Part shown: piece by piece, positions 29,554-54,108 of the stretch
Position numbering within the stretch: position 1 is the first letter of the stretch
How the letters are laid out: every line of letters begins with the position of its first letter
Assembly: GCF_026157035.1 (NCBI RefSeq)
Contig: NZ_JANJZA010000001.1
Location: 537,001 to 601,000 of the forward strand
Direction: 5' to 3'
Length of the DNA: 64,000 nt
Source of the DNA: Sphingomicrobium nitratireducens
Lineage (GTDB): Bacteria; Pseudomonadota; Alphaproteobacteria; Sphingomonadales; Sphingomonadaceae
Program-made: the position numbers and the translations under genes
Notes under the pieces: model-generated
Told to the model about the DNA's origin: nothing
What the model saw: the letters and a program-made list of their open reading frames with translations, nothing else
The model's database searches: none

Positions 29554-29587
29554 GCCGCGCCCGACACTTTCCCCGAGGAGTTTTCCC

Positions 29588-30853
29588 GTGAGCAACGACA
29601 CCAAGATCGGCAACCACCAGATCGACCCCGCCACGCTGATGATGGGCTACGGGTTCGACCCGCATCTGTCCGAGGGCGCATTGAAGCCGCCGATCTTCCA
29701 CACCTCGACCTTCGTCTTCCAGAAGGCCGCCGACGGGAAGCATTTCTTCGAGGGCATCACCGGCAAGCGCCCGGGCGGCGCGGGCGGGCTCGTCTATTCG
29801 CGCTTCAACAATCCCAACCAGGAAATCCTCGAGGACCGCCTCGCACTTTGGGAAGGCGCCGAGGACGCGCTGGTCTTCTCGAGCGGGATGACCGCGATTT
29901 CGGTGCTGCTCCTCTCGATGGCGCGCCCGGGCGATGTGATCCTGATGAGCGGCCCGCTCTACGCGGCGACCGAGAGCATCATCATGAAGATCCTGCCGCA
30001 GTTCGGCATTTCCTATGTCGATTTCCCCGCCTCGGCGACGCGGGAGGAGATCGAGGCGAAGATGGACGAGGCCAAGGCCATGGCCGAGGAAAAGGGCGGC
30101 AAGGTTTCGCTGATCTATCTCGAGAGCCCGGGCAACCCGACCAACGCCTTGGTCGACGTCGAGGCGGTGCACGCCGCGCGGCAGGCCAAGCTGCCCGACG
30201 CGCCGATCGCGATCGACAACACCTTCCTCGGCCCGATCTTCGCCAAGCCGCAGGACCAGGGCGCGGACCTCAGCGTCTACAGCCTGACCAAATATGTCGG
30301 CGGTCACAGCGATCTCATCGCGGGCGGGATCACGGGCAAGAAGACGCTGATCGACAAGATCATTCCGATGCGCAACACGCTGGGCGGAATCTGCGACGCC
30401 AATACCGCGTGGATGCTGCTGCGAAGCCTCGAGACGCTCGAATTGCGCATGACGCGGGCCGCGGAAAGCGCGCGCGCGGTGTGCGACTTCCTCAAGGACC
30501 ATCCCAAGGTCGAGCGGCTCGGCTATCTCGGCCATCTCGAGGAAGGCAGCCGGCAGAAGGATATCTACGATCGCCACTGCACCGGTGCGGGTTCGACCTT
30601 CTCGCTGTTCGTGAAGGGCGGCGAAGCGGAGGCGTTCCGCTTCCTCGATGCGCTGAAGCTCGCGAAACTCGCGGTCAGCCTCGGCGGCACGGAGACGCTC
30701 GCCTCCGCGCCCGCGGCGATGACGCATTTGTCGGTGCCCGAGGAACGGCGCCAGGCGCTCGACATCCAGGACAATCTGGTGCGCGTGTCGATCGGGATCG
30801 AGAAGCCCGACGATTTGATCGCGGATTTCTCGAACGCGCTGGACGCGATCTAG
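29588..30853 (+). CDS. Cys/Met metabolism PLP enzyme (cystathionine gamma-synthase / methionine gamma-lyase family)
   Basis: A 421-residue fold-type I PLP enzyme. It shows GGLVYSRFNNPNQEILEDRL (phosphate-contacting Tyr-x-Arg), SSGMTAIS, the PLP aspartate in IAIDNTFLGP, and the Schiff-base lysine in YSLTKYVGGHSD. The C-terminal SLGGTETLASAPAAMTH is typical. Reaction specificity (gamma-synthase, gamma-lyase or O-acylhomoserine sulfhydrylase) cannot be told apart here. It starts at GTG with GAGGAG eight bases upstream. The family usually has about 390 residues, so the N-terminal extension (first 35 residues) is slightly long. A repeated structured element follows its stop. Confidence 0.88.
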   Translation: MSNDTKIGNHQIDPATLMMGYGFDPHLSEGALKPPIFHTSTFVFQKAADGKHFFEGITGKRPGGAGGLVYSRFNNPNQEILEDRLALWEGAEDALVFSSGMTAISVLLLSMARPGDVILMSGPLYAATESIIMKILPQFGISYVDFPASATREEIEAKMDEAKAMAEEKGGKVSLIYLESPGNPTNALVDVEAVHAARQAKLPDAPIAIDNTFLGPIFAKPQDQGADLSVYSLTKYVGGHSDLIAGGITGKKTLIDKIIPMRNTLGGICDANTAWMLLRSLETLELRMTRAAESARAVCDFLKDHPKVERLGYLGHLEEGSRQKDIYDRHCTGAGSTFSLFVKGGEAEAFRFLDALKLAKLAVSLGGTETLASAPAAMTHLSVPEERRQALDIQDNLVRVSIGIEKPDDLIADFSNALDAI

Positions 30854-30862
30854 GCGCTGAAG

Positions 30863-30983
30863 GGGGTCAGGGCGGCCTGACCCCGTCGGACCTGTCGGCT
30901 TCGCCGCAGGCCGTCCGCGCTGCGCCGTCTCTCCGCGCTGCTAGGATTTCGCTGGCGAAATCTACGCTACGCTCGGCGGCTTG
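30863..30983 (+). repeat. Structured dispersed element, copy A (three hairpins)
   Basis: The 121-nt element contains hairpin 1 at 30863-30884 (arms GGGGTCAGG and CCTGACCCC, loop GCGG), hairpin 2 at 30891-30910 (CCTG-T-CGGC, loop TTC, GCCG-CAGG) and hairpin 3 at 30945-30962 (GATTTCGC, TG, GCGAAATC). Hairpin 3 is bracketed by GCCGTCTCTCCGCGCTGCT (30924-30942) and CGCTACGCTCGGCGGCTTG (30965-30983). Copy B at 45365-45491 on the other strand shares the layout, the hairpin 1 loop and the brackets. It fills the gap between two convergent genes, ending three bases before the HAD stop. Confidence 0.85.
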
Positions 30984-30986
30984 CGA

Positions 30987-31652
30987 CTAGCCCCAATCCT
31001 CGATGCGCCAGCCCTGCTCCTTGGCGAGTTCCTCGAGCTTGCCGTGCGGGTTCACCGCGACCGGCTCGTCCGACCATTCGAAGACCGGTCGGTCGGTGAC
31101 GTGGTCCGAGTAGAAGCGGACGTGTCCGCGCACGATTTCCGATTGGCTTTCCCAGTCGAGGATCATCGCCATCTTGGCGGGACCGTAGCAATTCTGGCCG
31201 TCGATCTTGGCATGCACTTCCTCGTCCAGCCCCAAGATGGTGTTGGTGCCGATGACATGGTCGAAGCCCATCCGCGCGCCGATTTCCTGGGCGTAGAAGC
31301 GGTAGCTCGCGGTCGCCATGACGACCATGCGCCCCTCGGCCTTGTCGCGCGCGATCGCGGCTCGGGCGCCAGGGCGGATATTGTGGGCGATCGTCTTTTC
31401 GGCGAAACTGTCGACCAAGGGTTTCAGCTCGGCCTGGCTGCGGCGGTGGCCGAGCAGCAGGCGGTGGTTGATCTCCTTGAGCGTTCCCCGGTCGATCAGC
31501 TTCGCGACGTAGGCGAGCATCGAGAGGATCACTAGCGGGAAGAAGACCAGCCTCAGCGGGTTGCGCCGCATCGCGCAGTGGATCAGGAACGGCGTGTAGG
31601 TCGGCCGCCGCGTAACCGTCTTGTCCATGTCGTAGATCGCAAGATCGGTCAT
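30987..31652 (-). CDS. HAD-superfamily IB phosphatase
   Basis: A 221-residue HAD phosphatase of the phosphoserine phosphatase-like IB group. Motif I is DMDKT (D8 and D10), motif II lies in VVMATASYRFY, and motif III/IV around FYSDHVTDRPVFEWSDEPVAVNP. A hydrophobic stretch at residues 30-52 (NPLRLVFFPLVILSMLAYVAKL) could tie it to the membrane. It removes a phosphate from a small substrate. Its start overlaps the nucleotidyltransferase stop (ATGA), so these genes form one cassette with the degenerate CDP-alcohol phosphotransferase. A lipid or polyol phosphate is the likely substrate by context. Confidence 0.85.
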   Translation of the reverse strand: MTDLAIYDMDKTVTRRPTYTPFLIHCAMRRNPLRLVFFPLVILSMLAYVAKLIDRGTLKEINHRLLLGHRRSQAELKPLVDSFAEKTIAHNIRPGARAAIARDKAEGRMVVMATASYRFYAQEIGARMGFDHVIGTNTILGLDEEVHAKIDGQNCYGPAKMAMILDWESQSEIVRGHVRFYSDHVTDRPVFEWSDEPVAVNPHGKLEELAKEQGWRIEDWG

Positions 31653-45292: not shown

Positions 45293-45364
45293 CACTTCCT
45301 CCCATGAATGGGCGGTGGGTATGCGAGAATTAAACACAGATCAGTAAACGTTAGGTAAACAGCC

Positions 45365-45491
45365 CAAGCCACCGAGCGCAGCGACGCCGACGCGGGACGC
45401 GTCGCCGGAGCAGCGCGAAGAGATGGCTTGCGGCCGGCCGGCGGGTCGGCGCAGCCGAACCCGTTCGACGAGGCAAGGCCGCCCTTGCCTC
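45365..45491 (-). repeat. Structured dispersed element, copy B (three hairpins)
   Basis: Reading the minus strand, hairpin 1 (45491-45470) has arms GAGGCAAGG and CCTTGCCTC around loop GCGG. Hairpin 2 (45463-45442) has CGGG-T-TCGGC, loop TGC and GCCGA-CCCG. Hairpin 3 (45404-45388) has CGACGCG, TCC and CGCGTCG. Hairpin 3 is bracketed by GCCATCTCTTCGCGCTGCT and CGCTGCGCTCGGTGGCTTG. Compared with copy A (30863-30983), loops and brackets are conserved while stems differ by paired changes. It sits in the 246-bp region between two divergent genes, which otherwise shows nothing I can name. Confidence 0.85.
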
Positions 45492-52726: not shown

Positions 52727-54108
52727 GGGGTGGTCGGGGTCTCCAGCCGGGACATCGCGCGACCCAAGGCAGGTCCCAGCAGCAGGAAGAAGACCGCACC
52801 CGCACCGGAAAGCGCCACATGGAGCGACCAGAAGGCCGTCGGCCCGAGCGTTTCGTACTGCGTGCCGACGATCCCCGAGCCGGTGCCCGAGAAGAAGGCG
52901 GTGAGATAGACCGCCGCCATCATCAGCGACTGGACCGGAGCGGGTGCGCGGCGCGAGACGAAGGCGAGCAAAGTCGGCCATTGGTAGAGGAAGCTGATCG
53001 CGGTCACGACCATCGCGACGAGCGGGAAGACGAGGCCAACCTTGCCGCCGCCTGCCGCCATTTCGCCGAACACGAGGACCAGTGCGCCCAGCGCCTGGAG
53101 CGTCGCGCCGATCCCGATCTTGCGCAGGTCGTCGGGTTCGCTGCCGCGCGCGGCCTGCCGCTGCCACAGCCAGAAGAGGACCGGGATGAGGAGGATTTCC
53201 GCCCCCGGCTCGACCGAGCTGAACCACGGCACCGGGATCGGACCGAGGAAACTGTCGAGGGACACGCGCTGGTCGATCCAGATCATGCCGATGTTGAACA
53301 TCTGGTCGAAGACGAGGCTCTGTAGCACGCTTGCCAGCATGACAAGGAGGACGAGCGCGAGGAGGCGGCGCTGGTTGGGCGTCATCGCGGGCGCGACCTC
53401 GCGATCCTTGCCGCGTGGCCGGTCTGCCCCGTAGTGGCGCAGCCCCGTGAAGTAGACGATCGCCGCGCCGAGCATGAAGATGCCGGCCGTGCCGAAGCCG
53501 ACATGCCAGCCATATTCCTGCGCAAGCCAGCCGCACACCAGCGGGCCGAGCACCGCACCGACATTGATGCCGAGGGTGAACAGGGTGAAGCCGCGCGAGC
53601 GGATGCCTTCGGCGTCGGGCGGATAGAGCTGGCCGACCTGCGCGGCGATATTGCCCTTGAGGCAGCCCGATCCCAGGATCAGGAGGGCCAGCGCGAGCAA
53701 TACGAGTGGCTCGAACGCCATCGCGAAATGGCCCGCTGTCATCAGGGCGATGCCGAGCATGACGGTGCGCTTGGCGCCCAGCACGCGGTCGGCGAGGAGG
53801 CCGCCGAACAGGGGCGTGAAATAGACGAGCCCGGCGTAGAGACCGAACGTCTGGCTGGCGAGCGCGACGGTCGAGAGCGGACCGAAGATGCTTTCGACGA
53901 GCGCGCGGTACGCCCCCATGCCCGCGACATTCTCGATATGGCCCGCGGTCAGCAGCTCGTCGGCAAGGTAGAGGACGAGAAGCGCGCGCATCCCGTAGAA
54001 GGAGAAGCGCTCCCATGCCTCGGTGAAGGCGAGGAAGAGGAGGCCCTTGGGATGGCCGAGGAAGGTGGCAGGAGGCTCGTCTGCGTCCAGCGGCGTGGTG
54101 CGGTCCAT
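52723..54108 (-). CDS. Proton-dependent oligopeptide transporter (POT family)
   Basis: A 461-residue major-facilitator protein with about 14 helices. [20 protein letters not shown] (helix 1) carries the ExxERF proton-coupling motif of POT transporters, and [19 protein letters not shown] matches the second POT signature. It imports di- and tripeptides with protons, which fits the several secreted peptidases in the window. Clear length match to the family. Its 3' end overlaps an HNH gene, and a DUF3617 protein precedes it by 26 bp. Confidence 0.93.

Follow-up and report, generated by a model that had tools for sequence, protein, structure and literature searches.

Composite palindromic elements, each with three hairpins in a fixed order, are dispersed through the genome of Sphingomicrobium nitratireducens and other Sphingomonadaceae, where they keep their fold and mostly follow a gene's 3' end immediately, in a preferred orientation. 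At one gene junction, elements have been gained or replaced among relatives. On balance, and by a narrow preference, we read them as composite REP-like 3'-end elements that probably serve as RNA hairpin arrays protecting or defining transcript ends, with both function and mode of mobility inferred from sequence. The S. nitratireducens genome is referred to as G000 in the comparisons and its sister genome as G528; the window is the whole 64,000-nucleotide stretch of G000 that was analyzed.

The window contains two copies, and direct reading and alignment confirmed the description of both in the initial annotation (Table 1). They lie at the positions reported there, and an alignment of 167 columns, the 20-nt flanks counted in, spans both over their full length. 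In the arms of hairpin 1 (H1), three base pairs differ between the copies, and each change is compensated; hairpin 2 (H2) retains a bulge and a short loop in both; and hairpin 3 (H3) differs in its core, with framing 19-mers that match at 17 of 19 positions on each side by our own count. Compared with dinucleotide shuffles, copies 1 and 2 gave z values of -3.75 and -4.51 when folded as DNA (0 of 200 shuffles as good) and -3.01 and -3.19 when folded as RNA (1 of 200 as good for each). The H3 of copy 1 ends 3 nt ahead of the stop codon (positions 30987-30989) of a convergent gene on the minus strand. Copy 2 is exceptional in that its H3 side is directed towards the start of a gene (a small minus-strand ORF starting near 45295) and not towards a gene end. 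In the same genome, two head-to-head elements at L123:1317-3582 (C1:44816-47081) flank an AT-rich ORF of 657 aa, which we take to be GHKL-type ATPase-like; it is possibly a foreign gene lodged there.

Table 1. Parts of the two window copies and genes flanking copy 1
Feature	Position	Strand	Remarks
Copy 1, head	30854..30862	+	Between stop codon of upstream plus-strand gene and H1; read directly
Copy 1, H1	30863..30884	+	9-bp stem, GCGG loop
Copy 1, H2	30885..30916	+	Short CCTG/CAGG subtype, conserved GTC at start
Copy 1, H3	30917..30983	+	Outer bracket enclosing unrelated core
H1-side flanking gene of copy 1	29587..30853	+	Presumably metZ-like; stop codon 30851-30853; start by home-made caller
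H3-side flanking gene of copy 1	30987..31652	-	Presumably HAD-like; 221 aa
Copy 2, H1	45470..45491	-	
Copy 2, H2	45436..45469	-	CGGG/CCCG subtype; R2 model match, 52.2 bits
Copy 2, H3	45365..45435	-	

On the strand used in the initial annotation, the modules follow each other in the order head, H1, GTC, H2, H3. By reading, the head sequences within the genus of S. nitratireducens are often GCAAGCGG-like. According to a simple hairpin scorer, H1 directly abuts the GTC, with zero gap, in 125 of 166 copies; its commonest loops are GGC-NNN-GCC, GGAGTNAATCC, and AGGGCGGCCT. The H1/H2 junction reads CGTC in 167 of 172 copies, the GTC portion of which is set by the search pattern, and T faces G in 162 of 162, which is partly forced by the pattern; the GTC may be paired. 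The outer stem of H2 is almost invariant, an invariance that is partly circular because many H2 letters are fixed by the pattern; its inner stem, which is free of the pattern from the third pair on, covaries. In H3, the outer stem varies, the bracket is semi-conserved, and the core is exchangeable; the cores recur by lineage, being of the AAATTCGC type in genome G003 and of the GATTGC type in the genus of S. nitratireducens. Behind the thiolase gene of G222 (locus L326) there is a lone H1-type hairpin without H2 and H3, which suggests that the hairpin modules can exist singly.

Pairing is maintained in the further copies. H1 is 97.5% paired over 18 distinct rows representing 32 elements (30 kept of 50 pattern matches, with fixed GTC spacing required and identical 34-mers dropped, and 2 added), with changes on both sides at 6 of 9 pairs. 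H2 is 93.9% paired over 13 rows, with such changes at 5 of 14 pairs. In both hairpins the covariation score was reached by 0 of 500 shuffles, counts that are not probabilities, the rows being related sequences. Full-element MAFFT alignments misaligned the variable arms and were set aside. The simple scorer rated the hairpins better than the best of 20 shuffles in only 113 of the 166 copies and found one mismatch in 96 of the 166 H1 stems.

The copy number and range of the family were assessed with two models. The R1 model (34 positions covering H1 and the linker) derives from 6 copies that BLAST searches and reading had brought up, and the R2 model covers H2 and was built from 13 sequences. 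The 2.27-Mb genome of S. nitratireducens holds copies beyond the first two: R1 finds 7 in all, at E values of 3.9e-8 or better (next match, 0.008), six of which are expected by construction as source copies of the model. R2 recovers 5 of these 7 at 2.8e-8 or better, and the two outside it have the shorter H2 (CCTG/CAGG), a type absent from the R2 build. At E≤1e-4, 30 of the 199 Sphingomonadaceae genomes sampled, from 16 of 96 genera, have R2 matches, which were inspected in part as copies, with the highest count, at least 31, in G003 (a maximum of 33 candidates was scored per genome). Among the 289 genomes of a class-wide sample, R2 matched 2, that of S. nitratireducens and G091, both from the same family. 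Within the genus, R1 matches at E≤1e-5 occur in 12 of 71 genomes. A family-wide R1 count at the permissive threshold of E≤0.01 (87 of 199 genomes) was discarded, since 7 of 21 inspected matches (L111, L113, L114, L115, L120, L121, and L122) were not element-like. Both models miss other subtypes, so these family counts are lower bounds; for example, G197 has 0 R1 matches, yet by reading it carries a complete element with a different H1 behind a gene that we take to be lepA-like. The H2 pattern was found in at least 118 stretches of named genomes. Among the matches listed, 115 of 118 come from Sphingomonas or its relatives (Polymorphobacter, Glacieibacterium, Thermaurantiacus, Hephaestia, Sphingosinicella-type, and unnamed Sphingomonadaceae or Sphingomonadales, the kinship of some of these being our assumption) and the other 3 are labelled Microvirga sp. 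SRT01, "uncultured bacterium," and "Alphaproteobacteria bacterium."

The initial annotation knew of no named family with such a layout, and Rfam searches agree for the window, copy 1, and the scanned loci. At the gathering score, Rfam models matched no element in the window, in a set of 8 loci, or in a set of 15 loci, where only the neighboring tRNA, signal recognition particle (SRP), and RNase P RNAs were hit, and copy 1 had no match even at E≤5. On these results, a named Rfam RNA was rejected for the scanned loci.

The most regular property of the elements is their placement. The set used for this purpose comprised 172 copies found by the H2 pattern: 2 from the window, 133 from the 118 listed loci of named genomes, and 37 others. 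Six of them lie within a called gene, 14 lack called neighbors on both sides, and 152 are usable; many are orthologous, so the counts are not independent. Genes were called with a home-made codon-bias caller, which overlooked one small ORF or more. The H3 side is directed towards the 3' end of a gene in 136 of the 152 copies and towards a 5' end in 16, and the H1 side faces 95 gene 3' ends and 57 gene 5' ends at scattered distances. In 122 of the 136 copies, the end of H2 and the gene end are 37 to 83 nt apart (less in 4, more in 10); as this is roughly the length of an H3, most elements abut the stop codon. For comparison, of 2,150 segments of 130 nt placed at random in element-free gaps, 220 had a gene end no more than 20 nt from their H3 side, a measure that is not identical to the previous one. 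Among the gaps of 90 to 900 nt in the window and the 118 listed loci, those with an element are 57 convergent, 47 tandem, and 3 divergent, versus 53, 148, and 122, respectively, for those without. In G003, 17 of the 23 copies read have a called stop codon no more than 80 nt from where H2 ends, and three of the remaining six adjoin tRNA or RNase P genes. Head-to-head pairs with facing H1 sides are seen at L162-L167, six regions chosen for that arrangement.

Given that the H3 side is mostly directed towards gene 3' ends, the functional strand is probably the reverse complement of the one adopted in the initial annotation, and the order in the sense of the transcript would be the stop codon (or mature RNA end), H3', H2', and H1'. 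The earlier description of a mobile palindromic repeat or structured RNA stands as far as a dispersed, fold-keeping, REP-like sequence is concerned, and it had overlooked the docking at gene 3' ends and the preferred orientation.

The genes on the H3 side are diverse. They encode 124 proteins that fall into 52 clusters, the largest of which (26 members) consists of short-chain dehydrogenases, presumably phbB-like. Pfam searches with ten H3-side representatives identified NusG, EF-G, a GroEL-type chaperonin, RpoA, Rho, sigma-70, SWIB, and two short-chain dehydrogenases; the tenth had no Pfam match at E 1e-10. Elements also lie at noncoding RNA genes: 6 of the 152 copies face tRNA genes, and some elements follow tRNA, SRP RNA, or RNase P RNA genes. 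At the 15 loci that were chosen for such neighbors, Rfam identified SRP RNA at 3, RNase P RNA at 2, and tRNA at 10. The H1-side gene is, by our assignment, EF-Tu-like in 3 of 5 copies behind EF-G and L17-like in 2 of 4 copies behind RpoA. The motif CTGTCCTACA or a close form was seen beside elements, after H3 at L003, L198, L399, and L400 and on the H1 side at L162 and L164.

Comparison of relatives reveals turnover. In S. nitratireducens, copy 1 fills the space between the convergent stop codons of the metZ-like and HAD-like genes. In G145, G197, and G077 this junction is empty, the two stop codons overlapping or being at most ~12 nt apart; G216 has an element there that is oriented like copy 1, and those of G528, G523, and G200 point the other way. 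Trees of both flanking proteins group G000 with G528 (support of 100/99 and 99/95), and the HAD-like proteins of the two are 93.6% identical, but their junction elements are in opposite orientations and belong to different subtypes. With the junction empty in three relatives and occupied in the sister genome by an opposite element of another subtype, copies have been gained or replaced. Inversion of a single element was considered and set aside: H1, the H2 subtype, and the H3 core all differ between the G000 and G528 copies, which is better explained by replacement or independent insertion. The remaining parts of the two trees disagree, so the events at this junction were not counted. At the thiolase 3' end (36 genomes with a match, 26 read), an element is found in 4 of the 26 (G000, G200, G077, and G211) and also in G537; its place is taken in G216 by a hairpin plus T-run and in G222 by the lone H1-like hairpin. 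By reading, complete elements follow the lepA-like gene in G000 and G197, an H3-only remnant does so in G077, and none is present in G528 or G145. Taken together, the three comparisons indicate that both gain or replacement and loss occur. In G528 (L418), the lepA-like 3' end is followed by an apparent duplicated fragment of the same gene at the place where G000 has its element.

No mobilizing enzyme was found in the genome scans or among the neighboring genes viewed. The RAYT-type transposase proposed in the initial annotation does not track them: Y1 transposase domains (PF01797, counted at E≤0.001) occur in 6 of the 30 genomes with R2 matches versus 25 of the 169 without, are absent from the S. 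nitratireducens genome, and, among the 11 genomes in which R2 finds at least 7 copies, were detected only in G101 (24.4 bits, in a 119-aa frame). On this distribution, a RAYT-mobilized REP was rejected. No IS200-type or recurring transposase was noticed by eye among the 52 H3-side cluster representatives and the 30 largest of the 100 H1-side clusters; one two-member H1-side cluster looks XerC-type recombinase-like and is probably a housekeeping gene. Of the features of a TIR-bearing MITE, target-site duplication has a single suggestive case: the flanks of copy 1, and of copy 1 only, can be read as a 4-bp CTAG duplication, which was not seen in G528, G523, or G200. Terminal inverted repeats were not seen by eye at copy 1 or at the junction elements of its relatives.

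According to the reading that we prefer, the transcript would carry the three hairpins as an array in its 3' untranslated region, where they would block 3'-to-5' decay and/or mark where the transcript ends, acting otherwise than as a canonical U-tract terminator. The element would spread as a non-autonomous unit, through an activity that favors gene ends or with copies surviving there. The orientation and placement of the elements favor such an RNA-level role, and the wobble statistics described below do not. This reading is weakened by copy 2, which itself faces a gene start, by the 16 of 152 copies with a gene 5' end on the H3 side, by the lack of G-U/A-C asymmetry in distinct helices, and by the failure to find a mobilizing enzyme. 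A bolder version, which appears unlikely, is that machinery other than the Y1 type aims integration at transcript ends or stop codons, making the element a portable 3'-end module. If so, landing in one orientation flush with the stop codon would provide a gene with a new 3' untranslated region, and this would hold even for neighboring genes that have no spacer between them.

Some of the same observations could be expected of transcription terminators. U-less or tandem intrinsic terminators likewise place GC-rich hairpins directly behind genes, and the elements might be U-less multi-hairpin terminators, possibly bidirectional between convergent genes, that are kept mainly for termination. Their presence behind tRNA and other noncoding RNA genes, which need termination, agrees with this, as do, by reading, the ordinary-looking hairpin and T-run that take the place of the element at the G216 thiolase 3' end and the terminator-like hairpin that forms the H3 core at L383. 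However, a canonical intrinsic terminator (a GC-rich hairpin followed by a U-tract) can be rejected, as TTTT within 12 nt after H1' is present in only 7 of 166 copies and missing in 159. The elements also differ from U-less and tandem terminators in having three modules and a sequence-conserved H2 and in lying partly between co-oriented genes, and L384 and L387 already have a terminator-like hairpin between the gene and the element (by reading). Moreover, some copies separate genes that are usually cotranscribed (EF-G/EF-Tu-like and RpoA/L17-like), where full termination would be costly unless a downstream promoter exists, so that a stabilizer fits better than a strong terminator. Termination as the main role is considered unlikely.

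It is about as unlikely that the elements are selfish or neutral mobile palindromic DNA, devoid of a host function and tolerated at gene ends only. Patchy presence (30 of 199 genomes, and 12 of 71 for the R1 type within the genus), different subtypes in opposite orientations at the same junction of sister genomes, heads and cores typical of each lineage (by reading), and the truncated copy behind the G077 lepA-like gene would all be natural for such DNA. Mere tolerance, however, predicts no preferred orientation flush with the stop codon, and R2 matches in 16 of 96 genera, even with the pattern-dependent near-invariance of H2 left aside, imply that the H2 sequence has been kept over long times.

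The initial annotation took the paired changes to mean a conserved fold. This holds, and upkeep of palindromes at the DNA level fits as well. Among 335 distinct helices from 126 elements, 96% of pairs are Watson-Crick, and the mispairs on the transcript strand are 53 A-C versus 48 G-T, compared with 163 versus 254 in shuffled sequences, so wobble counts give no signal of RNA-strand asymmetry. The ortholog comparison, which is not deduplicated and is biased to the transcript strand, gave 131 G-U versus 80 A-C and 257 other single mismatches; its 103 pairs, which are not independent, contain 73 compensated and 23 uncompensated double changes versus 468 single changes. As the deduplicated stems have no excess of G-U over A-C, DNA-level maintenance stays compatible with the data, and templated correction of the palindromes is possible. 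That the elements are primarily gyrase or nucleoid-protein sites or cruciforms behind transcribed genes, with arms kept palindromic by templated correction, nevertheless seems improbable: the wobble counts, the G003 H3 cores that by reading are quite different yet complementary, and the gyrase binding of Escherichia coli BIMEs are in line with it, but the strong orientation relative to genes is unexpected for a symmetric DNA site, and the conserved loops and brackets suggest recognition of sequence beyond palindromy.

Among described systems, the closest are the CGTC-tagged REPs of alphaproteobacteria (Di Nocera et al. 2013, PMC3733652), which have been reported from S. wittichii, S. chlorophenolicum, and N. 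aromaticivorans, among others. They are single hairpins of 8 to 9 bp with a loop of 4 to 5 nt and an unpaired CGTC motif at one end; their stems begin with A/T at two positions, and a CCA tail mostly follows. They have no dedicated transposase and, as conv-REPs of S. wittichii, mostly lie within 20 bp of both ORF ends. Shared features are short palindromes in alphaproteobacteria including sphingomonads, the CGTC motif, convergent or tandem sites near ORF 3' ends, the lack of a linked transposase, and head-to-head pairs (here from six regions chosen for them). Accordingly, neither the placement nor the lack of an enzyme is new. In contrast to those REPs, the present elements are three-hairpin composites that are G-rich at the first two stem positions, with the CGTC internal and its GTC possibly paired. 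A canonical CGTC unit with an A/T-starting stem of 8 to 10 bp was found in 0 of the 172 copies, even with no tail required. The family is set apart by its composite build, by this stem result, by its rule of orientation, and by the replacement of one orientation by the other between sister genomes, and we class it as a new REP-like variant, not a CGTC REP. Canonical CGTC REP-like sequences were seen near some elements (L313, L317, and L166), and by pattern such a unit lies within 400 nt on the H1 side of 10 of the 172 copies; a single CGTC-REP-like palindrome at window position 53379, found by pattern, may be due to chance.

Similarly to the GTAG REPs and BIMEs associated with RAYTs (Nunvar et al. 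2010, PMC2817692), the elements are dispersed extragenic palindromes with compensated arms, head-to-head pairs, and a mosaic composition. They differ from those in that GTAG occurs within 12 nt before H1 in only 6 of 166 copies and the Y1 transposase does not track them. GTRG heads are found in 20 of 166 copies, and GTAG in 8 of 23 copies in G003 over a wider stretch. A search of the open-licence literature by titles and abstract openings found no description of the three-hairpin layout, and the sole match to the H2 core string concerns a Burkholderia enzyme. The earlier remark that no named family has this layout therefore holds for the exact layout in the searched literature, with the qualification that CGTC-tagged REPs are partly alike.

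REPs of the CGTC kind, which lack a transposase, pose an open puzzle as to what moves them and what they do. The family described here offers a clean case, with its three-part anatomy and its docking at the ends of core and noncoding RNA genes, to which the sister-genome junction with subtypes in opposite orientations adds. It makes mobility and a role at the 3' ends of genes both directly testable.
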